Source of the DNA: Acidilobaceae archaeon
Lineage (GTDB): Archaea; Thermoproteota; Thermoprotei_A; Sulfolobales; Acidilobaceae
Reading direction: 5' to 3'
Assembly: GCA_027080775.1 (NCBI GenBank)
Contig: JALWPV010000072.1
Coordinates: forward strand, 1 to 45,385
DNA: 45,385 bases
Below are positions 10,798-43,524 of the stretch, piece by piece. A program made the translations under genes and the position numbers. Under the pieces are notes generated by a model. That model ran no database searches. It saw nothing but the letters and a program-made list of their open reading frames with translations, and was not told the origin of the DNA. Numbering within the stretch: position 1 is the first letter of the stretch; the number at the start of each line of letters is the position of its first letter.

Positions 10798-10818
10798 GTG
10801 AGGGCATTAATGCCTCAC
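10798..10818 (-). promoter_or_regulatory. Near-palindromic promoter element before the ABC-class ATPase
   Basis: GTGAGG-GCATTAATGC-CTCAC is an inverted repeat with one unpaired base; its core GGCATTAATGCC is a perfect palindrome that includes a TATA-like CATTAATG. It overlaps the stop codon of the upstream surface-protein gene and lies 30-50 bases before the ATPase start. Confidence 0.4.
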
Positions 10819-13307
10819 GACACAGAGCCGAACCGCAGGATATTCCAGGCCCTCAGCGCGGAGTAGACTATCTCCTCCACTATAGTCCTGGGAGGAGCCC
10901 CCACGCCGCCCGTGACGTTCCAGGCGACCTCTATCGGGTTGAGTATTATCGTGCCATTAACGAATACGCCGTTATCGTAGACCCTCAGGGCTACATCGCC
11001 GAATAGCGTCGGGCTGGAGGAGTTGTCGGCGTAGAAGGTTGCGTCCCACATGACTACATCACTCCAGTTAACGCCACTAGACGCCAGTATCTTGACGGCC
11101 TGGCTGAAGTTCAACACGTTGTAGAGGTAGAAGGCATAGTTCTCGGCTCTAGCCTCCAACCCAGCGGGCGTTATGGAGAGGTTGAAGGGCCCGTTGACTA
11201 TGGCGGCGTAGCCGCCCTCATAGGTCTGCATGTCGAGGCTGGAGAGGTTGCCGTAGGGCCAAACCCAGACCCAGTGGTACTCCGCAATGTAGTAGCGCAA
11301 CACCGAGTCGTCAACGCCGCAGGAGCCTAGGACGTCGCCTATGCTAGTGTTGCCCTGGAGCCACAGTATGATAGCGTACTTAGGCGGGCTTTCAGTATTG
11401 AACAGCAGGTTACACAGGGTGGTGGTGTTAGTTATAACGGTGTAGCCCGTAACCCCGGCGTAACCCAACTCGTCCTTGACAAGGCTCAGCATGGTCTCGA
11501 GAGCGTCAACCTTAGCCTCAGTTATATTAGAGATGTTATACTCGCTTGCATAACCGACAGCATTGATACCATTGATAAGGGATGCATCCGGTATAGCAAC
11601 AATATAGACCGGCGGGCTCTCCTTAAACAATGGATTTAACACTCCATATTCAACTATCATATGCTCAAGTGCAAAGGCGAAGTCTTTATAGCATTCATAT
11701 CCATAACCATCCCAATCTCTGTAATTATCGTAGAACATCAATCCAACCCTATAAACACCATTGCGCTCGACAGGGAACAACGCTTCAACATGATACTGCT
11801 TCGGCTTTTCATTCGTATACGAGAAATCTTTCTCATCATAAACTATCCACCGATTGATTTTCTTATCATACTTCCATACGACAAGAGAAAATATTCGTAG
11901 ATGCCTGAAGGTGGAGGGACAGCTGGGAGGATAGAATATTATAAATGGCCCCCACCGGGTGTAATAGGAGATGGCAGTGTCAGTCCAATAATAGTTTATC
12001 TTTGCATCTACACGTATAAAGTCCACACCACTTATGTCGCGTGCTATCATGTATGTCCATACTAGTGCATCGGTTAGATTGTTCCCGTCACCATCTGCAT
12101 CTAAAGTAATAGGTTCCGTTATAGTTGGGCCGTTGAGTAAGCTAGTAAATACTAGCTCCTTAATCCCGTTTCCATCGAAGTCCAATTCCCTTATGGAGCC
12201 AGTGGTGTTATAAAGTATATAAGGTTTTTTACACGTAATATTATATAATTGATTTCCCGATGAATCCAATATAAGCACTTGAAATGCATAGCCGCTAAAA
12301 TATGTAGTATTTTGAGCGTCATATGTTCCAACGTAGCCGTGAACCTCTATGGTATCTCCACTACCTACGGTAATATATAGGCTGGTGAGATCAGTAAAGA
12401 CATTACCTGAGATGTTCCAGGTGCAGTAGAGGTTATATGACCTGCTATCTACCTCGACCTCTATGCTCTCGTCGGGTACAATCTTAAGGTAATAAAGACC
12501 TGGATACTTGGGGTCGTTATAAATAAATGACTCTTTAAAGTTAAAGGCGCTAGGACTGCCTGTCAGATCTTCACTTACTATTCTCAGTGGTGGTGTCCAG
12601 GCGTAGGCTTCGCCTTCCTTCATTAGGGCGTTGTAGCCTATGAGTTTGAAGCCGCTTTGGGTGATGTAGATGCCTCTGGGTATTGAGTAGGCTCCGGCGC
12701 CTCCGCCGCCCCCGCCTGGGGCTGAGAGGAGGGTGCCGCTGTAGCCCCCGCCGGATATTGGGTGAAGGATTCCGTCGCTTGACTCGACTCGTACGACTAG
12801 GTTGGCTGCTACTGGCATTATGTTTGTCTTGTTGAATACTACGACTAGGACGTCGCCGGGTTGTAGTACTATGGGCTGCCCCCTGGGCACGGGTGTGCCT
12901 ATGTAGCCTTCTTGGAGGTTGGGGTTGAGGTACATCTCGGCTATGATGGTGGTGGTATTTGGCATGCCGTGGGAGAGGTCTACTATGGCGTAGACGCTAT
13001 GGCTTGCAACATCTATTAGGTAGAGCTTGTCCAGCTTGACAGGCACAGTGCCCGTGTTGTTGATGAAGGCGCCGGGGATCCAGCCCAGCTCCTGGTATAT
13101 GCGGGAGTAGGGGTTAACGGGTCCAATACTAAGCTTCTCGTCGTACCTGAACATGCGCTGTTCTAGCTGGAGCCTCTGGGCTGTTAGGCTCCTCTCGGCG
13201 TTGTAGTAGGAGTTGAGTATTATGGGTACTGCGAACATGAATATGAGTGTGAGTACTATGAGCCCGCCTATGATCTCGGCTTGTCCCCTCCGCTTTCTCC
13301 TGGGCGT
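10815..13307 (-). CDS. Very large pilin/archaellin-like surface protein with class III signal peptide (non-standard start)
   Basis: The first conventional start in this frame is ATG 13238 (807 aa), but the 23 codons before it encode PRRKRRG-QAEIIGGLIVLTLIF. This is a textbook class III signal peptide, cleaved by prepilin peptidase after KRRG, with the hydrophobic core running on into MFAVPIIL. The real start must therefore lie upstream; ACG at 13307, 7 bases after GAGGGGGG, is the best placed codon and gives 830 aa. The mature protein has many N-X-S/T sites, a Gly-rich linker (APGGGGGGAGA), Ca2+-loop-like segments (DFDGNGIKE, DADGDGNN), and no recognised enzymatic domain. Bases 11520-12560 are markedly AT-rich. 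Probably a pilus-tip or adhesin-type surface protein. Stop at 10815, just before the ATPase gene. Confidence 0.65.
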   Translation of the reverse strand, partial: TPRRKRRGQAEIIGGLIVLTLIFMFAVPIILNSYYNAERSLTAQRLQLEQRMFRYDEKLSIGPVNPYSRIYQELGWIPGAFINNTGTVPVKLDKLYLIDVASHSVYAIVDLSHGMPNTTTIIAEMYLNPNLQEGYIGTPVPRGQPIVLQPGDVLVVVFNKTNIMPVAANLVVRVESSDGILHPISGGGYSGTLLSAPGGGGGGAGAYSIPRGIYITQSGFKLIGYNALMKEGEAYAWTPPLRIVSEDLTGSPSAFNFKESFIYNDPKYPGLYYLKIVPDESIEVEVDSRSYNLYCTWNISGNVFTDLTSLYITVGSGDTIEVHGYVGTYDAQNTTYFSGYAFQVLILDSSGNQLYNITCKKPYILYNTTGSIRELDFDGNGIKELVFTSLLNGPTITEPITLDADGDGNNLTDALVWTYMIARDISGVDFIRVDAKINYYWTDTAISYYTRWGPFIIFYPPSCPSTFRHLRIFSLVVWKYDKKINRWIVYDEKDFSYTNEKPKQYHVEALFPVERNGVYRVGLMFYDNYRDWDGYGYECYKDFAFALEHMIVEYGVLNPLFKESPPVYIVAIPDASLINGINAVGYASEYNISNITEAKVDALETMLSLVKDELGYAGVTGYTVITNTTTLCNLLFNTESPPKYAIILWLQGNTSIGDVLGSCGVDDSVLRYYIAEYHWVWVWPYGNLSSLDMQTYEGGYAAIVNGPFNLSITPAGLEARAENYAFYLYNVLNFSQAVKILASSGVNWSDVVMWDATFYADNSSSPTLFGDVALRVYDNGVFVNGTIILNPIEVAWNVTGGVGAPPRTIVEEIVYSALRAWNILRFGSVS

Positions 13308-26656: not shown

Positions 26657-27631
26657 GTGCACAAAGCCCTCAGGGGCCCCTTCACCGGGGCGCCCACTAG
26701 CAGGGCCGAGCTGGTGGAGAGGGCCTCGAGGCTCCTGGGCCTCGTGGGCCGCACCCCGGTTAGGTGCTCGAGGCTCGGCCCCGTGGAGTTATGCGTTAAA
26801 CTGGAGTACTCGAACCCCACGGGTAGCCACAAGGATAGGATAGCCGTTTACATGCTCAGGGGCCTAGCCGAGGAGGGCGCCCTGGAGCCGGGGGGCTGTG
26901 TGGCCGAGATTAGCAGCGGGAACACGGCAACCTCCGTGGCGTGGGCCTCGAGGCTCCTCGGGCTGAGGGCCGTGCTATACGTTGAGAGGAGGGTGTCTCC
27001 CCTCAAGAAGTCCATGATAAGGGCCTTCGGGGGCGAGGTAGTCGAGATAGGCGACGAGCCCGAGGAGAGGGAGAGGGCGGTGGAGGACATGGAGAGGAGG
27101 GGGTGCGTCTACCTCAACCAGTCCGGGAACGAGTACAACTGGAGGGCCCACTACGAGACGAGTGGCCCCGAGATCCTGGGCCAGCTCCACTGGGACCTCG
27201 ACGCCTTCGTCATGGGCGCTGGCACGGGGGGCACCATAACTGGAGTGGGGGAGAGGCTCAAGGAGGCCCTGGGCAGCGTGCTCGTAGTCGCCGTCACCCC
27301 GAGGGCCTCAGCGCTGGCCGGGGGCCCCGGGGGCGATGTGATCGAGGGCCTGGCCTCCACCAGGATCCCTAGCCTCCTCGAGAGGCACCGCCGGGCCGTG
27401 GATAGGGTCATAGAGGTCTCAGAGGCGGAGGCAGTTGAGGGCGTCAAGGCCCTCCTGAGGCTCACCGGCATAGCAGCCGGTCCCTCGACGGGGGCGGCCC
27501 TCGTGGGCGTGCTCAGGCTCGTGGAGGAGGGGGCCCTGGATAGGGGTGTGAGGGCCGTCATACTGGCGGCGGACCACGCCTCCAGGTACCCCTGGCTCTT
27601 AGAAGCCCTAGCTGGTGGTGCCGGGCCTTGA
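26657..27631 (+). CDS. PLP-dependent cysteine synthase / threonine synthase-like enzyme
   Basis: 324 aa, fold-type II PLP enzyme. The PLP lysine is in NPTGSHKDR; the substrate-carboxylate loop is SSGNTATSVA; the phosphate-binding glycine loop is GTGGTITG. These patterns match the cysteine synthase/cystathionine β-synthase group, making cysteine from O-acetyl- or O-phosphoserine and sulfide. The loop SGNTA in place of the usual SGNTG is a mild deviation. GTG start at 26657. Its stop overlaps the start of the CARF-PIN gene by 4 bases, so the two are co-transcribed. Confidence 0.8.
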   Translation: MHKALRGPFTGAPTSRAELVERASRLLGLVGRTPVRCSRLGPVELCVKLEYSNPTGSHKDRIAVYMLRGLAEEGALEPGGCVAEISSGNTATSVAWASRLLGLRAVLYVERRVSPLKKSMIRAFGGEVVEIGDEPEERERAVEDMERRGCVYLNQSGNEYNWRAHYETSGPEILGQLHWDLDAFVMGAGTGGTITGVGERLKEALGSVLVVAVTPRASALAGGPGGDVIEGLASTRIPSLLERHRRAVDRVIEVSEAEAVEGVKALLRLTGIAAGPSTGAALVGVLRLVEEGALDRGVRAVILAADHASRYPWLLEALAGGAGP

Positions 27632-29130
27632 AGGCCGTCGTGCCCCTGGGGGCCGACCCGAGCTCCCCCCTCGCAGCCCTCTCGGCCCTCTACAGGGTCT
27701 GGGAGGAGTACGATGTGGACTCCCTGCTACTACTCGCCACAACCGACGCCCCCAGCGGGGTCCTCGAGGCCGTTGAGGCTGAGGCCTCGGAGAGGCTCGG
27801 GCTCCGAGTCGGCGTGGAGAGGGTTGACGCTGGAGTCGAGGGCCTCGGCGATGGGGGTGACAGGCTGACCTCGGAGGTGGAGGGCCTCCTCTCCAGCGAG
27901 TGCGGGGACGGCCTCGTGGTCGTGGTCTCACCCGCCGGTAGGAGGCTGGCGGCGGCCCTAGCCCTCGCCGGCGCCAGGCTCACGGAGTGCCCCGTAGACG
28001 TTGCCCACCTCCACTTCTACTTCGGCCCCTGGACGGGCCTCCCATACCCCTACACCCCCCGCAGGCTCGAGCCACTAGTAGTCATGCACAGGGGCCTACC
28101 AGGGGAGCGGGGGGCCGCCAGGAGGGGCGAGGCCCCCGGGAGGGCTAGGAGGCTCTTCGACGCCCACTGCAGGCTACCCACGGGAGCAGAGCTACCCCCA
28201 CTCAGGTGCGCCGTTGGGGAGACGGCCAGGATCCTCAACGACTCCCCCGGCTCCACGCTCCTCCTACCAGGCAAGAGGAGGTGCGGCAGGCTACTCGTCG
28301 GGATCGGCGGCCGGAGCCTCGGAGCCGCCGACCTCTGCAGTGAGAGGGACGCTGCGAGACTCGCCGGGGGCATAGCGGCGTTCCTCAACGAGTTAGCCGA
28401 GGGCGCCTCCCCCATAAGGGAGGCCGAGCGCCTCCGCCAGTCCCTAGCATGGACGGGCCTTGCTCACCTCGAGGCCCACACGCCGCCCAGGGCCCCCAGG
28501 GCCTACAGGGGGCCCTTCCATGGCGTGGCCTCCTCGGGGGCCCCGGTGATCGTGGACACCACCCTGATCTACTATGGGGTCCACCGGTACGCCTGGGAGG
28601 GCGGGAGGATCCTGGTGCCGGAGTGCGCGGTCGTCGAGGTCCACTCGAGCTGGGCTGAGGCCGCTAAGAGGGGGAGGCTCGAGAGCGGCCGCGACGCCGC
28701 GGCCGCCCAGGCCTACATGGGCCTGGCGGACCTCCTGGGGGCGGGGGCCTCCATAATACCGGCGCCGGCTGGCAAGTGCGATGTGTCCATACCGAAGGCT
28801 GAGCCGGTCATACTCGACAACTCCTACATAGCAACCGCCGACGACGGCGCCTACAGGTACTGGGTGAGCCACCCGGCGAGCAGGCTCGCGACGCCGCTCA
28901 AGGTGAGCTTCGACCCCTACAAGGCCTCAAGGCAGGAGGTGGACCCCACGAGGGATCCCCGCGGCCTCTCGAGGCTATACTACGCCCTAACCCAGGCGCT
29001 CGTGCTCCTGGCACTCCTCGACAGGAACGGCCTCGTGGAGGGGCTAGAGCTTGAAATAGAGAACCCCGACGGCTCGACTAGGAGCGTGAGGATCCCCGCG
29101 GGATCCCTCCAGAGCAGGCTCTACGCCTAG
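27628..29130 (+). CDS. Predicted CARF-domain protein with C-terminal PIN-like nuclease
   Basis: 500 aa. Residues 1 to about 155 look like a CARF (CRISPR-associated Rossmann fold) domain: opening strand KAVVPLGADPSSPLAAL, the DSLLLLATTDAP strand, and VVVVSPAGRRLAAALALAG, where CARF proteins have the ligand-binding 'TGGTK' loop, followed by AHLHFYFG and LEPLVVMH. About residues 305-440 read like a PIN nuclease: PVIVDTTLIYYG (first Asp, about residue 310), LVPECAVVEVHS (Glu) and PVILDNSYIATADDG (later Asp pair). The central 140 residues are unassigned. CARF domains bind cyclic oligoadenylates; PIN domains cut RNA. No CRISPR array or cas gene is nearby. Coupled to the cysteine-synthase gene. Confidence 0.55.
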   Translation: MKAVVPLGADPSSPLAALSALYRVWEEYDVDSLLLLATTDAPSGVLEAVEAEASERLGLRVGVERVDAGVEGLGDGGDRLTSEVEGLLSSECGDGLVVVVSPAGRRLAAALALAGARLTECPVDVAHLHFYFGPWTGLPYPYTPRRLEPLVVMHRGLPGERGAARRGEAPGRARRLFDAHCRLPTGAELPPLRCAVGETARILNDSPGSTLLLPGKRRCGRLLVGIGGRSLGAADLCSERDAARLAGGIAAFLNELAEGASPIREAERLRQSLAWTGLAHLEAHTPPRAPRAYRGPFHGVASSGAPVIVDTTLIYYGVHRYAWEGGRILVPECAVVEVHSSWAEAAKRGRLESGRDAAAAQAYMGLADLLGAGASIIPAPAGKCDVSIPKAEPVILDNSYIATADDGAYRYWVSHPASRLATPLKVSFDPYKASRQEVDPTRDPRGLSRLYYALTQALVLLALLDRNGLVEGLELEIENPDGSTRSVRIPAGSLQSRLYA

Positions 29131-29148: not shown

Positions 29149-29877
29149 GTGGGCCGCGCCCCGGCGCGTGGGTTGAGGGTCTTGACCAGCGTGCCGGGCA
29201 GGCTCGGAGAGGCCCTTGAGAGGAGGGGGAGGCTCCTCCAGGTCGCCCTAGACTACACCAGCCTCGGCGACGCCTTCGGGCTCGCCATGCGCCTCCCCAG
29301 GGTGGAGGGCGTGATCCTGGAGGCTGGCACGCCCCTCATAAAGTCCGCCGGGATGGAGGCCGTGAGGATCCTCAGGGCCCTCCCCGGGGCCCACCTGGTG
29401 GCGGCTGACACCAAGACAGTGGACACCGGAGCTCTGGAGGTGGGCCTCGCAGCCGATGCCGGGGCCGATATAGCGACGGTGCTGGCCCTAGCCCCTAGGG
29501 AGACTATAGAGGAGGCCCTCAGGGAGGCGGAGAGGAGGGGGGTGGCACTCTACGCCGACATGATAGGCTCCCAGGACCCAGTCAGCCTCGCCTCGAGGCT
29601 CCGCGAGATAGGGGTCCACGTGGCGCTCCTACACATAGGGATAGACGTCCAGAGGCGGCTAGGCATAACCGCGGGCCAGGTCACCCAGCTCGTCGAGAGG
29701 GTAGCCAAGGCCTTCCAGGGCCCCGTGGCGGTTGCGGGAGGCGTGAAGCCCGGGGAGGCCCGGAGGCTGGCCGAGGCTGGGGCGTCCATCGTGATCATAG
29801 GCGGCGCAATAACCAAAGCCGCCGACCCGGGGGCCGCGGCGGCTGAGGCCCTGAGGGGCCTCGGGCTAGGCTTGTAG
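29149..29877 (+). CDS. 3-hexulose-6-phosphate synthase
   Basis: 242 aa, OMP-decarboxylase superfamily. The family landmarks are LQVALDYTSLGDAF, EAGTPLIKSAGMEAV, VAADTKTVDTGALEVGLAADAGADI (catalytic D-x-K-x-x-D), HIGIDVQ and VAGGVKPGEARRL with VIIGGAITKA. In archaea lacking the oxidative pentose phosphate pathway, this enzyme runs in reverse to supply ribulose 5-phosphate and formaldehyde. The partner isomerase (PHI) is not adjacent. GTG 29149 is used; TTG 29173 or 29182 would remove a basic N-terminal extension. Confidence 0.87.
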   Translation: MGRAPARGLRVLTSVPGRLGEALERRGRLLQVALDYTSLGDAFGLAMRLPRVEGVILEAGTPLIKSAGMEAVRILRALPGAHLVAADTKTVDTGALEVGLAADAGADIATVLALAPRETIEEALREAERRGVALYADMIGSQDPVSLASRLREIGVHVALLHIGIDVQRRLGITAGQVTQLVERVAKAFQGPVAVAGGVKPGEARRLAEAGASIVIIGGAITKAADPGAAAAEALRGLGLGL

Positions 29878-31188
29878 GGCCTCCCTCGCCAGCCTCGCTA
29901 GTAGCCTCCTAGCAGTGGGATCCCCGAGTTCGAGCGCCAGCCCCTTGAGGAGGGCCTCCCCCAGGATCCTCAGGGGGTCGCCCCCGCTGCTGGCGGCCTC
30001 CTCCGCCTCCTCTAGGGCCCTCCTGACGATGGACTCCAGGCTCGGCGGCCCCTCCGGTGGGGCGGCCTCCTCGGCTAGGTCCTCCGCTATCCCCCTTAGT
30101 GCATCGCGGTCCCCTATCTCCACGTCGTCATATACTATTATCCCGTTTGACTCCAGGTCGGCGCGCACCTCCCTCGGAACGGGGGCCCTGGAGACGAGGT
30201 AGAACCTCTCCGGCTTGAATGTCTCCTTGTAGAGTAGTAGGAGCCTGTGCTCCCTCACCCTGAGGCTCCTAGCCCTGCCCTCGGCGAAGTCCTCGACCCT
30301 CCTCCTCTCGACGCCCAGTATGTCGGCCAGCCCCTCCTCCAGGCCCCTCAGCCACCTCTCCCTCCACTCCGTCGCCCTCATGGGCTTCGCGAAGGGCCCC
30401 CTCAGGTCCCTGGCCCTCTCGTACCAGTCGGGCAGCTCCTTGCACTCGATTATAGTGTGGGGCCTGATTATCGGTGGGTCCCTGTCGGGTGCCGCTATGT
30501 CGAGCACCCTACCCGGGTAGACGAGCATGTCCGGCCTTAGCACGGTGTAGAGCCTCCAGCTCCTGGCGAGGTCGCCCGTGTCCTCCCAGCCTATGGGCCT
30601 GGGGGCCTCGAGGAAGAAGCTGAGCTCTCCCCGCGAAAGCCTGACTATAGCATTGGGCGGTATACTGCCGCTCCTCTGCCTCCCACTCCTCTCGAGCAGT
30701 ATAACCCCCGTCTCGGGGTAGATAAGCCGGCCCCCCATGGAGCCTAGGTGCCCCAGGATCGCGGCTAGAACCCAGTCCTGGTATATGCTCCTCAGGTTAG
30801 TCCTCAGGCTGGTCCTGACGGCGGCGGAGCCCCTCCTGATTACTTCCTCCTCCCCTATCCTACCCCTCGCCAGGTCGAAGACGTAGTTGAAAAGCTTCTT
30901 CCTGAGGTGGGCCCTCGGATCCCCCAGGAAGCTCCTCAGCTCCCTCGAGTAGCTCCACCCGCGGGCCCCGAGGAGCCTCGATGCCCTCCTCAACTCGACG
31001 ACGAGCACCTCAGCCCAGGCCCTGGCCCTCTCGACCTCGCCGCGCCCAACGGCTAGATCGACTATCCTGTCGCGGATGCGCTCGAAAAGCTCCTCAGCCT
31101 CCCTAGAGGAGAAGACAAGGTGTATCCCGTCAGCGCGGACGAGCCCCCGGAGCCTGGCCACAAGCTCGCCGAGGCCCTCCTCAGCCAA
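29866..31188 (-). CDS. Predicted PD-(D/E)XK nuclease-like protein
   Basis: 440 aa. The central segment contains RPDMLVYPGRVLDIAAPDRD, then PHTIIECKELPDWYERAR: an Asp at the end of one strand and E-x-K on the next, the PD-(D/E)XK core. The N-terminal 200 residues are mostly helical and the C-terminal 110 residues are acidic and helical (EAEEAASSGGDPLRILGEALLKG). No restriction, Holliday-junction or transposon family could be assigned. TTG 31188 start, directly adjoining a perfect 10-bp palindrome, with a tandem 8-bp repeat farther upstream. It converges on the hexulose-phosphate synthase, with the CARF-PIN gene next to that. Confidence 0.5.
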   Translation of the reverse strand: MAEEGLGELVARLRGLVRADGIHLVFSSREAEELFERIRDRIVDLAVGRGEVERARAWAEVLVVELRRASRLLGARGWSYSRELRSFLGDPRAHLRKKLFNYVFDLARGRIGEEEVIRRGSAAVRTSLRTNLRSIYQDWVLAAILGHLGSMGGRLIYPETGVILLERSGRQRSGSIPPNAIVRLSRGELSFFLEAPRPIGWEDTGDLARSWRLYTVLRPDMLVYPGRVLDIAAPDRDPPIIRPHTIIECKELPDWYERARDLRGPFAKPMRATEWRERWLRGLEEGLADILGVERRRVEDFAEGRARSLRVREHRLLLLYKETFKPERFYLVSRAPVPREVRADLESNGIIVYDDVEIGDRDALRGIAEDLAEEAAPPEGPPSLESIVRRALEEAEEAASSGGDPLRILGEALLKGLALELGDPTARRLLARLAREALQA

Positions 31189-35534: not shown

Positions 35535-35581
35535 CGTTTATCCTGTAATCCTCTGGGATATCGTGTGTGGAGGGGGTGTCC
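35535..35581 (+). promoter_or_regulatory. Promoter and ribosome-binding site of ribonucleotide reductase
   Basis: TATA-like CGTTTATCC (35535-35543) and GGAGGGGGT, 5 bases before ATG 35582. The latter decides the start over the in-frame GTG at 35567. Confidence 0.5.
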
Positions 35582-38500
35582 ATGCCTAGGGTTGAGGTGC
35601 TGAAGAGGGACGGGAGGAGGGAGAGGTTCCTGCCGGCCAAGCTCTACGAGGGCATAAGACTCGCCGTCGAGGGCGCGGGCCTCCCAGTCGAGGAGGCTAA
35701 GAGGCTATTCGAGGCGGTCAAGGCCGAGATACTAGAGGAGGCCAGCGAGACCGGGCAGCCCGTGCCGACCGCCAGGATAGCGGATAGGGTCGAGAGGCTG
35801 ATGGTGGAGTGGGGCCTCAGGAACCCGCTGTGGTTCGAGGCGGCCAAGCGCTTCGAGCTAGCAAGGATCTACAATGACGTCTACGGCAAGGGGGCCTGGG
35901 ACGGCTTCGACGAGGCCGACCTCAGGCTCACCTTCAACGCGATAAAGGTCCTCGAGGCCCGCTACCTCCAGAAGGACCCCGAGACGTGGAGGTTCAAGGA
36001 GACCCCCCAGATGATGTTCAGGAGGGTCGCCCGCTTCCTAGCAGGGGTTGAGAGGCGCTACGGGAAGAGCGAGGAGGAGGTGAAGAGGTGGGAGGAGGAG
36101 TTCTACAGGATCATGAGTGAGCTGAGGTTCATACCTAACAGCCCCACGCTCATGAACTCCGAGACGGAGCTGGGCATACTCTCAGCCTGCTTCGTCGTGC
36201 CCGTCAGGGACAGCATAGTAACGCCCGACGGGGAGGGGATCCTCGACGCCGTTAGGGCGCAGGCCGTGATATTCCAGCACGGCGGCGGCGTCGGCTTCGA
36301 CTTCAGCGAGATCAGGCCGGCGAACGATGTAGTCCTCACCAGCGGGGGCCTCGCGAGCGGGCCCCTCAGCTTCATGAGGCTCTTCGACCTCAACACGGAG
36401 GTCATTAAGCAGGGCGGCAGGAGGCGCGGCGCTAACATGGGTATAATGCACGTGTGGCATGCCGACGTGGAGGACTTCATCAGGGCCAAGACGGGCGAGC
36501 TAAAGGACGTCAACCTGCAGAACTTCAACATAAGCGTGGGGATATACGACGAGTTCATGAGGAGGGTCCTCGAGGGGGGCGAGTGGCCCCTAGTCAACCC
36601 CAGGAAGACGGACCTGACAGGCAGGAGGGACAGCAGGTACTACGCCATGGTCAGGGCGAGGCACTATATGAGCGAGGAGTGGGTCCAGGAGTACATAGTG
36701 AGGGAGCTGGAGGAGCACGGTGGGAGCATAGCCCTAGACGAGACGACCCTACTCACATTCGACGAGGCCCTTGCCATCGCCGAGGCCGAGGGCGCCATAG
36801 TCAAGAAGGTGAACGCCCGCGACCTATTCGAGCGCATAGTCCACGGCGCGTGGGACAGCGGCGACCCAGGCATAATATTCATAGACGAGATCAACAGGCG
36901 CCACCCAATATGGTATATTGGAAAAATAAATTCAACAAACCCGTGTGTGAGCGGTGACACCAGGATACTAACGCCGGAGGGTTGGAAGACTGCCAGGGAG
37001 GTCTTCGAGGAGGCCCGCAGAAACGGTGTCGTACGCGGTGTCGCAGTAGACGACGACGTGCTAGGCGAGGGCGGCGAGCCTGTGGCCTACAAGACGAGGC
37101 TGCTCACGGTCGTTGGTAAGGAGGAGATCTACAGGACCGTGTGGGGCGACACCCTCGAGCTAGTTGTACCCAAGGCGGTCGATGCGTGGGTGTGGCACGT
37201 CGGCAGGAAGCCAGCGCTCAAGGTGAAGACCAAGGAGGGCTATGAGATAACTGTCACGCACGAGCACAAGTTCCTGACGCCCGAGGGCTGGAAGGAGGCC
37301 GAGAAGCTAAGGCCGGGCGATAAGATAAGCTTGGCGAGGCTGCACCCAGCCTTCGAGGCCTACGAGGGCTCCGTGGACCTAGACGAGGACGTGGCCTTCG
37401 CCCTAGGCTGGCTCATAGGTGACGGCACCTTCAACGAGCACTATGCGGCCTGGTTCTTCTCGGGCCACGACAAGGCGGCTGAAGAGAGGGTCAGGAGGGG
37501 CATAGAGAAGCTCGGGGGCAACCCCCTATCGCACACCTACGTGCTCAGCGAGTCCGAGCATAAGATCCAGTACAATAGGGGCACCAGGGTCTACAAGAGC
37601 GTCCTAGAGCTACTAGGCTCCACACTCGCCAGAAGCCGGGAGAGGAGGCTGCCCGAGATAGCGTGGAAGCTCACACCCAGAGCCCTAGCGGCCTTCCTGA
37701 GGGGGCTCTTCACGGCCGACGGCTATGTAGACTCCGATAAGGCGATCCGGCTCACCAGCGCCAGCTTAGACCTCTTGAAGGAGGTCCAGGTGCTCCTGAC
37801 AACGTTTGGAATATACTCGACTATCTACGAGCGGCCCTACGAGAGCGAGTTCCGCTACACAACAAAGGACGGAGAGGAGAGGGTGTACCACGCCAGCGGC
37901 TACTACGAGCTAGTCATTAAAGGCTACAGTAGGAGGCTCTTCAAGGAACTAATCGGATTTGAGAGTATAGAGAAGCTCGAGAAGCTCAGCCTAGCCAAGA
38001 CAAAGAGGGACTCCGTCTGGGCGACCGTGGAGGAAGTAGTAGACGTGGGCGAAGTTGACTTCTATGACTTCACTGTACCGCTGTACCACAACTACATAGC
38101 CAACGGCCTGGTGAACCACAACTGCGGTGAGGAGCCTTTACTGCCGTGGGAGAGCTGTAACCTGGGTAGTATTAATCTTGAGAGGTACGTGGTCGATACT
38201 GGTGAGGGGCCTAGTGTTGACTGGGAGGGGCTGGCTAGGGATGTCAGGGTTGCTGTGAGGCTCATGGATAATGTGATTGATGCCTCACGCTACCCCCTGC
38301 CGCAGCTGGGTGAGGCCGCTAGGAGGGCTAGGAAGATAGGCCTCGGAGTGATGGGTTGGGCCCGCATGCTGATACGCCTCGGCATACCCTACGATAGCCC
38401 CGACGCCGTCTACCTGGCGTGGGCGGTGGCTGAGTGGATAGCGTGGAACGCCTACATGGAGAGTGTGAGGCTAGCCGGGGAGAAGGGGGCCTTCCCCGCC

Positions 38501-39481
38501 TGGGATCCGGAGCGGTACAGGTGGATCTTCGAGACCCTCCCGTTCAGGGAGCCCGGCGAGATGCTTAGGCTCGTGGAGGCCGAGACGGGGAGGAGGGGCT
38601 ACTACGCGCCGCCTAGCGAGAGGGTGAGGCGCATACTCGCAGCGAGGCCCCCGGTTGACTGGGGTGAGGTCAAGAGGGCCGCTATGAGGGTGGGTCTCCG
38701 CAACGCCGCGCTGCTGAGCATAGCACCCACTGGGAGCATTAGCATTATAGGCGGTGCCAGCGCCAGTATAGAGCCCCTCTTCGCCCTAGCCTACGTGAGG
38801 CAGGTGAGCGTCGGCACGTTCCTCGAGGTAGACCCGCTATTCATAGAGGAGCTGAGGAGGCTCGAGATAGACGAGCCCGAGGTCATAGAGGCCATAGCGG
38901 AGACGGGCAGCGTGGCCCACCTCAAGTGGATACCCAGGAGGCTCCGCCGCCTCTACAGGACGGCCCACGACATAGACCCCGAGTGGCACCTACTCCACCA
39001 GGCCGCATGGCAGGCCTGGGTCGACGCAGCGGTCAGCAAGACAGTCAACCTACGCCACGACGAGCCCCCCGAGACGGTCTGGAGGGTCTACATGCTGGCC
39101 TGGAAGCTACACGTGAAGGGCACCACGGTCTACAGGGACCGCAGCAAGAGCCAGCAGGTCATATACTTCGGCGTCAAGAAGGAGAAGGAGGAGAAGCGGG
39201 AGAAGGAGGCCCCCAAGCCCTCCGAGGCTCCTACGGCCGAGAGGGCCCCCCGCGAGGAGGAGCCCAGCGAGGGCGAGGAGGAGCTGAAGCCCGTGCTCGT
39301 CATAGAACCCGCCAGCCCGCCCTCCGAGGCCCCGCAGCCAAGCACAGCCGCGGAGGCCGCGGGGGAGGCGCACAGGATGGCCCCGACACGCTCGAGGGTC
39401 AGGCTGGGGAGCGGCAAGATAAAGGAGCTAGTGGCCGTGGCCGCGGAGTATGCTGGGGGATGCCCCACCTGCGATATCTAG
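35582..39481 (+). CDS. nrdJ: Class II (adenosylcobalamin-dependent) ribonucleoside-diphosphate reductase with intein
   Basis: Reduces ribonucleotides to deoxyribonucleotides. 1299 aa precursor; extein 906 aa after removal of a 393-aa intein at residues 455-847. N-terminal ATP-cone ([25 protein letters not shown]), then the barrel: SACFVV (disulfide Cys), [23 protein letters not shown], the split active-site motif [23 protein letters not shown]. The C-terminal part has a long Lys/Glu-Pro-rich linker and ends GGCPTCDI, the redox-shuttle CxxC. No small-subunit gene and no glycyl-radical motif are present, which fits class II. ATG 35582 follows GGAGGGGGT. Codons on either side of the intein are more AT-rich than the rest. 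Confidence 0.92.
36944..38122 (+). mobile_element. Intein with LAGLIDADG homing endonuclease in nrdJ
   Basis: 393 codons in frame, starting with Cys ([14 protein letters not shown], splicing block A) and ending NGLVNHN before the extein Cys (blocks [19 protein letters not shown]). Block B is [14 protein letters not shown]. Two LAGLIDADG motifs are visible ([11 protein letters not shown] and [12 protein letters not shown]), so the endonuclease looks complete. The insertion is exactly before the catalytic-loop cysteine of NPCGE, so the enzyme is inactive until splicing. This insertion point is known in other ribonucleotide reductases. Confidence 0.93.
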
Positions 39482-40089: not shown

Positions 40090-43000
40090 CTACTTGCGGG
40101 TGAGGAGGAGGCCCGAGACTGCCGCGGCGATGAATGCTAGGGTCGCGGCCGCTATCGAGGCCGCCTCCGCTGCTGTGGCCTTCTGCTTGGCCTGCTCGGC
40201 GGTGGCTGAGAGGCTGGCTAGGCTGTTGGTTGCGTTGTCCACCTTGCCGCTGAGGCCCTGGAGGCCGGTGTTGAGGCCTTGTATGAGCCTGGTTATGTTG
40301 AGGTAGAGCGTGCCTATGGAGGTCTTGACCTCCGCCACCCCATCCTCGACCTTAACTATGCGGCCCTCTATGTCGCCTAGCTTGGTCTTGATTATTATTG
40401 TCTGGTTGCCCAGTATCTCTACCCCCCTGAGTATGCTTGTAACGTTTGACTGTAGCAGGGCCAGCCTGGAGTTGGCCTCCTCGACGCCTTCTAGGGTGTT
40501 GTTGAGCGTGCCGCTCATAGCGGCCAGCTTTTCGGCGGCGACCCTGTAGTCGCTTATGAGTGTGGGGAGGCCGTTGTAGGCCTCACCTATGGCGTCTATG
40601 ACTACTACGGCGTAGCCGCTGGCCTTCAGGGTGGCGTTCTCGTAGCTGGCCGCTATGGTGACCGTGTAGACCCCGGGCTCAGGGGCCTTGAAGCGGAGCA
40701 CGTAGGAGCCCCCGCCGCCCTCGAGGGTCGCCTGGGCTCTGTAGCCGCTGGGGCCTGTTACCGTGGCGTTCACGCCGCTGGGCGGCACGGGCAGGGGCTC
40801 GCCGTGGTAGAGCGTCACTATCGGGATCTCGACCTCGCCGGGCTCCACTATCGCCGGGGCCCCGACCACGATGCTGATGGAGTCCCTACTATAGACGCTC
40901 AGGGTGGCTGAGAGTAGCGCTGCCAGGGGCCCGCTCTGCGTGGCCCGGATCGGCGGGTAGCCGTAGCCCGTGCTGGGGTAGACTGTGACCTCGTAGGTGC
41001 CCGGCGCCAGGTAGGGTAGGGCGGCGCTCCAGTTCACGTAGCCCTCCTCCACGGGCACGTCTGCGGCGAATGGGCGGCCTGCAACGTAGAGGGTGACCCT
41101 CTGGGCGTTGAGGAGGTCGAGCCCGTAGGCCTCAACCACCAGGAGGCCCCCGGCCACCTGGCTCTCGGGGGCGACGTGGACTCCTAGGGCGCCGTAGATG
41201 AACCTGTAGAGGCCGCGGCCCTCGGCGTAGAACTCGTCTAGCAGCAGCCCCGAGGCGATGCGGCCCGTCGGGTATGTGAGTGTCACATTGCCCCTGGTGT
41301 AGAAGGTGAGGGAGCCGGTGCCTATCCTCTCGTAGCCCGCCAGGTCGCCGTAGCTCATGTAGATCCTATACGTGTACTCGCTATAGTTCCCCGGCATCGC
41401 CGCTACGGCGAGCGTCGCGTTCCCGGGCACCCCGTAGACGGGCATGGAGCCGCTCGCCATCGGCAGGGTCTGGGCCTCGGTTAGGTTCAGGAGCAGCCTG
41501 TAGCCCCTAGCCTCGACCCCGAGTATCCTCGCTGTGGGGGGCTCCAGCGTGGGTAGCCTGGGCAGCACTATGGCGGGGTCGCCGAGTAGGGTGGCCTTGA
41601 GGACCTCGGAGAGGGCTATCACGCTACCTATCGTTGAAACATTCTGGTATAGGGTTAGGGCCTCGGCGGCGTAGCTCGCCAGGCCCTGGGCGAACACCTC
41701 GCCGAGCGTCGCCCCCCGGGGGCCTAGCTCGTTGTAGGCTTTCAGGATCTCCTCGTGCAGGAGCGTTGCACCATAGTAGTCCGCTAGCAGGGTGCCCTCC
41801 CTAACCGTGTAGAGCCCGTGGGGCCCGAAGAGCTCCGCGGCGATCCTAGCGGAGCCGAGGTAGGCCACGCCGCCCGCGGGTGATAGCAGCACGGCCTCGC
41901 CTAGGCTCGGGGGCTTGAACCACTGGGAGGGAGGCACGAGGGCCTCGTCCCACGCGGCGTCCATGCAGGCCACGCTGCTAACAATAGGCACCGAGGGGTT
42001 GTAGTGCATCCTCAGCAGCTCCGTGGCGTTCACCAGCACCTCGAACCTATAGGAGACCCCGGGGCCCCCGCTCTCGCTTACCACTAGGTCACCCAGGCTG
42101 TTGCCGTTGCCGTGGGCTATGGCGAAGTACCAGAGCGCCCCGGCCTCGCCGGCTAGGATCCTGGCGACGCTCCTGTTATCGTAGTTGCCGAGGGTCCTGG
42201 CGAGTAGCTCGACGTAGAAGTTGCTCGTGCTGTTCCGGTACGTGATTGTGGCTAGGGCTGTCTCGCCGAACATCTCGGGTGTCAGGAACGGGTAGCCACC
42301 GCTCATGTAGAGCTTCCCGCTCCTGTAGGCCGTGGTGTTGTACCACGCCGCCAGCTTCTGGACGTAGGCCTCGACCTCGCCGGGGTTGGAGAAGGGTATT
42401 CTGCCAACGTAGATGTTAGGTGCTAGGTCGTAGTCGGGGCTGGCGTAGAAGAAGTCCGTCGGTATCCACGAGTTGTACGGGTCCATGAGGTGGATGGGGT
42501 AGGCGAAGTAGTAGCTCGGGGGCACCGTGGCGGCGTCCCCCACTATCACGAGGTGGCTGTACTCGCCGGCGTGCTCCCGGAGGAACTCTATTATCTTGAG
42601 TGAGAGGTTGAAGTCATACGCCTGGGTGAGCCTCACGTAGACGGGGTCGACGTAGGGCGGGTTGGCGAAGCCCGGGTAGGGCGGCGGCTCCGCGGGCTTG
42701 TACGTCTTGTTTATGTATTCTACTGTTACTATGGAGACGTTGTAGCCGAGCTTCTCGTATAGGCCCACGAGGCCCTGGACGGCAGCGAGGAGCCTCTGGG
42801 AGGTGAGCACCAGCACGCTCCTCCCGGGGGCCCTCGTGGGTACGGGGCTCTGGTAGGACACTACAACCGAGGCCCTATCAACCACGACCAGGGTACCCGT
42901 GGCTGGGTCGTAGTTGACGGGGTAGAACCTGACAACTATCAGGGTCTTCCCGCCTAGCCCGTGCCACACGCTATAGCCAACAAGCCTCCCAGGGTAGAAG

Positions 43001-43524
43001 GAGTCGCTCGAGTATATCCTGGGGTCGGGCTTGTAGACCAGCCCCCCAGCCCCAGGGGCTCCGGGCTTGTAGTAGAGGGGCTCGGGCACCGGCGCGACAG
43101 GCTCATGGGTGACGCTCACGTGGAAGGAGTACACGCGAACACCCACCGAGACCCCGCTCGCCGGCACGTAGCCGTCGACAGTGATCACCTTAACCAGCAC
43201 GGGAAGCCCCGGGGCACCAGGTACCGTAACGTAGCTCTTCTCCCACCCGCCACTAGCCGGGTAGTAGTCTACCACAACATAACTGGAGCCGGGTAGCCTC
43301 GACGCTACAGCCCTGCCCCCCAGGGCCAGCAGCTCCCCAGCAGGCCCAGCACTCCCAGGCTCGGGCACCTTGATCCCCATGCCCCTCAGCAGCGAGGAGT
43401 AGTCCTGGGAAGCCAGGGCACCCACGCCATAGAGCACCAGGGGGGCAACCATTAGCAGCGAGGCGGCAACCGCCAGCAGGATCCTCAACCGCCCACCACT
43501 CAAGGAGCCAGACACGACTCGCAC
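40090..43524 (-). CDS. Membrane-anchored C25 (gingipain-like) cysteine protease on a coiled-coil stalk
   Basis: 1144 aa surface protein. Signal peptide at residues 12-36 (LRILLAVAASLLMVAPLVLYG). The C25 domain spans about 230-680: HLVIVGDAATVPPSYYF, PDYDLAPNIYVGRIPFSN, catalytic His in YFAIAHGNGNS (His471) and Cys in SSVACMDAAWDE (Cys520), then GGVAYLGSARIA and LLGDPAIVLPRLP. β-sandwich/Ig-like repeats follow (to about 960). A coiled coil comes next (about 985-1110, LASLSATAEQAKQKATAAEAA) and a C-terminal helix with TRK anchor. Numerous N-x-S/T sites. The arrangement recalls stalk-borne proteases of hyperthermophile S-layers, though those are subtilisin-like. TATA-like CTATTATAG lies about 40 bases upstream. 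Confidence 0.82.
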   Translation of the reverse strand: MRVVSGSLSGGRLRILLAVAASLLMVAPLVLYGVGALASQDYSSLLRGMGIKVPEPGSAGPAGELLALGGRAVASRLPGSSYVVVDYYPASGGWEKSYVTVPGAPGLPVLVKVITVDGYVPASGVSVGVRVYSFHVSVTHEPVAPVPEPLYYKPGAPGAGGLVYKPDPRIYSSDSFYPGRLVGYSVWHGLGGKTLIVVRFYPVNYDPATGTLVVVDRASVVVSYQSPVPTRAPGRSVLVLTSQRLLAAVQGLVGLYEKLGYNVSIVTVEYINKTYKPAEPPPYPGFANPPYVDPVYVRLTQAYDFNLSLKIIEFLREHAGEYSHLVIVGDAATVPPSYYFAYPIHLMDPYNSWIPTDFFYASPDYDLAPNIYVGRIPFSNPGEVEAYVQKLAAWYNTTAYRSGKLYMSGGYPFLTPEMFGETALATITYRNSTSNFYVELLARTLGNYDNRSVARILAGEAGALWYFAIAHGNGNSLGDLVVSESGGPGVSYRFEVLVNATELLRMHYNPSVPIVSSVACMDAAWDEALVPPSQWFKPPSLGEAVLLSPAGGVAYLGSARIAAELFGPHGLYTVREGTLLADYYGATLLHEEILKAYNELGPRGATLGEVFAQGLASYAAEALTLYQNVSTIGSVIALSEVLKATLLGDPAIVLPRLPTLEPPTARILGVEARGYRLLLNLTEAQTLPMASGSMPVYGVPGNATLAVAAMPGNYSEYTYRIYMSYGDLAGYERIGTGSLTFYTRGNVTLTYPTGRIASGLLLDEFYAEGRGLYRFIYGALGVHVAPESQVAGGLLVVEAYGLDLLNAQRVTLYVAGRPFAADVPVEEGYVNWSAALPYLAPGTYEVTVYPSTGYGYPPIRATQSGPLAALLSATLSVYSRDSISIVVGAPAIVEPGEVEIPIVTLYHGEPLPVPPSGVNATVTGPSGYRAQATLEGGGGSYVLRFKAPEPGVYTVTIAASYENATLKASGYAVVVIDAIGEAYNGLPTLISDYRVAAEKLAAMSGTLNNTLEGVEEANSRLALLQSNVTSILRGVEILGNQTIIIKTKLGDIEGRIVKVEDGVAEVKTSIGTLYLNITRLIQGLNTGLQGLSGKVDNATNSLASLSATAEQAKQKATAAEAASIAAATLAFIAAAVSGLLLTRK

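Follow-up and report, generated by a model that had tools for sequence, protein, structure and literature searches.

A CARF-PIN protein encoded apart from cas genes in an Acidilobaceae archaeon as a probable in trans effector of the type III-B system of its host

Two CARF families fused to PIN domains were reported in 2014 (PMC4012209), and PADLOC models are available for CARF_m3-CARF_PIN (PDLC01984/PDLC01983), for CARF_m12-CARF_PIN (PDLC01979) and for a CARF_PIN group of the Sulfolobaceae (PDLC01068). A homologue of the latter group (by phmmer), SiRe_0806 from Sulfolobus islandicus, has been deposited in the PDB as a PIN domain-containing protein, both in complex with cA4 (9jxx) and free of it (9jxw); publications on this protein or on the biochemistry of CARF-PIN proteins were not found in our open-access literature search. 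Csx1 and Csm6 (CARF-HEPN) likewise join a CARF sensor to an RNase effector of type III CRISPR, but their nuclease is a HEPN domain, whereas that of the protein described here is a PIN domain. Outside type III CRISPR, a CARF-like sensor is found in RtcR, which differs in being a transcription factor and whose CARF binds tRNA fragments with a 2',3'-cyclic phosphate (PMC7790460). In addition, many Csa3-encoding genomes are apparently devoid of Cas10, a puzzle already on record (PMC8699464), and statistical arguments have led to the proposal that effectors act in trans for type III loci that are cyclase-positive and effector-less (PMC11229360).

The window analyzed here (a whole stretch of 45,385 nucleotides from an Acidilobaceae archaeon) encodes a 500-aa protein that we assign, from its sequence, to the known CARF_m3 family as an intact CARF-PIN effector (Table 1). 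Indeed, PADLOC model PDLC01984 (CARF_m3-CARF_PIN) matches residues 1-469 of 500 with an E-value of 5.5e-92 (profile positions 1-413 of 433), and this coverage means that the family is already catalogued; Pfam and NCBIfam searches of the protein returned no family, and the PADLOC profile search returned no match to PDLC01068. The protein shares with the CARF_m3 family the full-length profile match, the order of CARF domain, central region and PIN domain, the signature and the acids, but it is 38% identical to the Aeropyrum-like members (the best model matches) and its gene lies among metabolic genes. All motifs and predicted catalytic acids are present in the window copy.

Table 1. Features of the CARF-PIN gene and its immediate neighbors in the window
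Feature	Position	Strand	Evidence
PLP-dependent cysteine-synthase-like (cysK-like) gene	26657..27631	+	context; 4-nt overlap with CARF-PIN
CARF-PIN gene, 500 aa, TTG start	27628..29130	+	PADLOC PDLC01984 over residues 1-469
CARF (Rossmann-like sensor) domain, residues 1-160	27628..28107	+	AlphaFold model, Foldseek to CARF proteins
CARF ligand-pocket motif (predicted) LVVVVSPAGRRLAAALA, residues 96-112	27913..27963	+	aligned to canonical TGGTK motif
Family signature HFYFGPWxGLxYPYTPRxLEP, residues 128-150	28009..28077	+	alignment conservation
Central region, residues 161-300, with PLRCAVGETARILN motif	28108..28527	+	family alignment, AlphaFold model
PIN nuclease domain, residues 301-470	28528..29037	+	alignment, PIN-only model and fold matches
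D310 codon (predicted catalytic acid; invariant)	28555..28557	+	family and PIN alignments
E337 codon (predicted catalytic acid; no variation in the PIN alignment)	28636..28638	+	
D385 codon (predicted catalytic acid; D or E among relatives)	28780..28782	+	read from family alignment
D405 codon (predicted catalytic acid; no variation in the PIN alignment)	28840..28842	+	
OMPdecase/HUMPS family (3-hexulose-6-phosphate synthase-like) gene	29149..29877	+	context; follows CARF-PIN in same genus too

The AlphaFold2 model of the full protein (mean pLDDT 92.5, pTM 0.93), built on a family alignment of 30 sequences, found its best PDB matches with Foldseek in the SiRe_0806 chains (E about 1e-7; whole-chain TM 0.47/0.55). 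Next in rank were the ring nucleases Sis0455 and Sso2081, Csm6, Cam1 and Cad1. The window protein and SiRe_0806 thus have the same overall architecture by structure comparison, a similar CARF motif and the same PIN acids. In contrast, no PDB sequence was matched by the window protein, the family profile or two other CARF proteins, SiRe_0806 being reached only from a protein of the PDLC01068 type, which is also the model that its relatives match; the link is therefore at the level of the fold. An earlier note made from the DNA alone had read a Rossmann-like CARF N-terminus and a PIN-like C-terminus, and both folds, with no other fold for either half, were recovered by structure prediction: the former is backed by the PADLOC profile and by the matches to SiRe_0806, Sis0455, Sso2081, Csm6 and Cam1, and the latter folds as PIN when modelled alone. 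CARF_m12-CARF_PIN proteins are also CARF fused to PIN in related archaea, but they are about 550 aa long and mainly their PIN half resembles the window protein. Note that the ~550-aa proteins of one family (f3), first counted as weak members, were left out of our statistics; the four that were tested proved to be CARF_m12-CARF_PIN instead.

Concerning the sensor, the segment VVVVSPAGRRLAAALALAG, which the same note had called CARF-style, corresponds to the CARF motif, given its alignment with the canonical LTGGTKAMAG of a Saccharolobus-type CARF-PIN (hhalign probability 97.8) and, when compared by eye, its match to DITPGRKYMA of SiRe_0806. The motif reads S-P/S-A-G/S-R in most family members (S/T-x-A/G-S/G-R is also given for most relatives), and in the window protein it is SPAGRR instead of TGGTK, so that the ligand could differ. 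Downstream of this motif, residues F130, W135, G137, Y140, P141 and P144 of the signature are at least 90% conserved in the family alignment. The central region of 140 residues, previously left unassigned, is present as described, but it is not unique to the window protein; it is found across the family with a conserved PLRC-x-VAELARxLN motif (residues about 161-300) and belongs to the family's architecture, with no separate fold assigned to it. As a separate observation, the CARF-PIN pair of genomes G059 (L038:565-2097) and G058 (L039:1423-2955) sits on a very long branch and has its CARF motif replaced (VALPHSWVILSRF) with the PIN acids kept, a sequence pattern in which the ligand may have been lost or changed.

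The four acidic positions that had been noticed in the PIN-like half are D310, E337, D385 and D405. Across the alignment of 28 PIN domains, D310, P331, E337, T403 and D405 are invariant (positions converted from fragment numbering), and the acids are accordingly not lost among orthologues. The PIN half modelled alone (pLDDT 89) matched PIN proteins including PAE2754, PAE0151 and SSO1118, which we take to be of the PIN/VapC type.

No CRISPR array and no recognizable cas gene was seen in the window. The earlier remark that no CRISPR locus is in view therefore holds for the window, but does not extend to the genome (1.78 Mb, 99.9% complete), where the whole-genome cas10 search found a Cas10 with a GGDD motif on another contig. 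This 27.5-kb contig (C16, the CARF-PIN gene being on C72) carries Cas2-Cas1-Cas4, two CRISPR arrays, a CARF7-type protein, Cmr3, Cas10, Cmr6, Cmr1, Cmr5 and Cmr4, which make up a complete type III-B (Cmr) locus and its arrays; on a third contig (C13) lies a type I-A locus. The Cas10 is 1153 aa long, with an HD domain near the N-terminus and the GGDD cyclase motif at residue 876, and a nuclease effector was not recognized among the ORFs of the III-B contig. A source of cyclic oligoadenylate (cOA) thus exists in the source genome, and the CARF-PIN protein could, in trans, take the place of an effector that is not recognized locally. These results support the option, already raised in the earlier note, that the protein serves a distant type III system.

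Consequently, we consider it likely that the window protein is a cOA-activated RNase acting in trans for the III-B system of its host. We infer that the III-B complex would recognize invader RNA, upon which its Cas10 would make cOA, most likely cA4; this diffusible messenger would bind a presumed CARF dimer through the S-P-A-G-R-R motif and the FYFGPW..YPYTPR loop, and the bound dimer would switch on the putative PIN active site (D310/E337/D385/D405), which would then cut RNA and slow both cell and virus. The CARF7 protein of the III-B locus, a probable ring nuclease, would in turn degrade the messenger and end the response. Binding of cOA by the window protein is suggested by the similarity of its model to SiRe_0806, which was solved with cA4. 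A III-B locus with no effector recognized nearby would hence find a plausible RNase in the window protein, an illustration of how effectors may be shared in trans.

The distribution of the CARF_m3-CARF_PIN family, which is spread across Thermoproteota, is consistent with this role. In one genome (G303, L108), the CARF-PIN gene adjoins Cas10, a CARF7 gene and a CRISPR array, and in another (G171, L063) it overlaps a CARF7 gene. More generally, CARF-PIN lies at most 20 kb from Cas10 in 5 of the 15 closed genomes with both (0.5 expected, P about 1e-4), and Cas10 was found in 21/29 near-complete carriers compared to 39/93 non-carriers (OR 3.6, p 0.005, phylogenetic non-independence being ignored). 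Both the linkage and the Cas10 enrichment in relatives tie the family to type III, and a gene that is unlinked to cas genes, as in the window, is common in this family and not exceptional. In addition, two CARF proteins of 574 aa (G182, L100:4531-6252) and 568 aa (G174, L101:5005-6708), located some 10-25 kb from Cas10, match several CARF and CARF_PIN models weakly and possibly form an undescribed CARF-PIN subfamily.

CARF-PIN copies broken into two or three frames were also observed (L053:9001-10564 in G174, L086:1462-2968 in G323 and L089:847-2514 in G124), which suggests repeated decay. One could therefore ask whether the window protein is itself a decaying relic, that is, a CARF effector left over after rearrangement of a type III locus and now out of signalling, as would fit these split frames, an N-terminal break in G051 and the loss of the CARF motif in the two related genomes G058 and G059. 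We regard this as very improbable for the window copy, which is intact in all motifs and predicted catalytic acids, retains its syntenic position in the sister genome and has, relative to that genome, a dN/dS of 0.26-0.38, which is close to, or a little higher than, the 0.23-0.25 of the metabolic genes on either side.

A further question is raised by the carriers in which, by family and protein searches, Cas10 and RAMP genes were not detected (8 of the 29 near-complete ones, two of them, G026 and G027, closed), since Cas10-derived cOA may then not fully explain the family. Between G026 and G027, the CARF-PIN gene has a dN/dS of 0.106 at dS 0.81 (neighbor genes 0.02-0.17) and is under purifying selection. 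G026 also encodes Csa3 regulators, in two type I-A loci. In G133, the CARF-PIN gene lies within a type I-A locus, next to cas5a/cas7a/cas8a and with csa3 about 1.3 kb away (the Csa3 family search being noisy from generic HTH matches, only matches above the curated cut-off were used). Together with the precedents of RtcR and of the Csa3 genomes mentioned above, these observations would fit a reading in which Cas10 is not the source of the nucleotide or RNA signal that the CARF domain senses, candidates being cOA from another synthase or RNA ends (e.g., tRNA fragments), and the PIN domain cuts RNA; the signal would perhaps be shared with the type I-A Csa3 CARF regulators, and the protein of a Cas10-bearing host may respond to both signals. 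For the window protein we find this improbable, as the source genome has an intact Cas10 and needs no other signal. Furthermore, the absence of Cas10 is scattered over the CARF-PIN tree (7-8 state changes), as expected if type III was repeatedly lost and the effector retained; dN/dS averages in the time before Cas10 loss; Cas10 might sit on a plasmid missing from the assemblies; and no alternative synthase was identified, CD-NTase and mCpol lying outside the scope of the search. The other nucleotide signal envisaged earlier is thus dispensable in the source genome, but is a real question in the near-complete relatives.

For the family as a whole, an answer to a non-Cas10 signal, as proposed from the intact gene kept in several near-complete genomes with no detectable type III, is a tentative and rather doubtful hypothesis. 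If true, it would imply a new nucleotide messenger or synthase, which may also serve Csa3. The closed genomes among these carriers widen the open Csa3 question (CARF sensing in genomes lacking type III), so far one about a regulator, to include a nuclease, and they single out organisms from which the CARF ligand could be fished out.

In the immediate surroundings of the gene, the TTGA at the CARF-PIN start shares 4 nt with the end of the PLP enzyme gene upstream, including its stop codon. As an alternative to the effector role, this overlap and the same-strand order could speak for a metabolic role linked, via translational coupling, to the cysK-like and HUMPS genes on either side. The order GTPase, cysK-like, CARF-PIN and HUMPS is indeed kept in a same-genus genome (over two contigs, L003 and L006), but the gap between cysK and CARF-PIN is there about 1.4 kb: the adjacency is kept and the overlap lost, so that the overlap behind the coupling pointed out earlier is real in the window but not conserved. 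In other genera, the neighbors are unrelated (gcvPA/gcvPB-like genes, ABC transporter genes, CRISPR arrays and a type I-A locus). Given the gap in the sister genome and the different contexts elsewhere, the overlap is no evidence of shared function; a functional tie to these neighbors was rejected, and a metabolic role, largely refuted by the varying neighborhoods, is hardly credible.

On the other side of the HUMPS gene, a 440-aa protein (window 29866-31188, minus strand) shows an apparent PD-(D/E)xK-like motif (RPHTIIECKE) and was matched by neither Pfam, NCBIfam nor PADLOC. In G202, a CARF-PIN gene of another subfamily has a homologue of it as its neighbor, but the protein was rejected as a CARF-PIN partner because it is widespread (conserved in 86/229 genomes of the class) and located elsewhere in the other genomes compared. 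Elsewhere in the window, an 807-aa protein that has no Pfam match (10818-13238, minus strand) lies in a low-GC patch (0.47-0.49 versus about 0.65), a ribonucleotide reductase large subunit of 1304 aa (35567-39478, plus strand) contains an intein with a LAGLIDADG domain at about residues 528-852, and a 1144-aa Peptidase C25 family protein with a C25 propeptide is encoded, in an archaeon, at 40093-43524 (minus strand).
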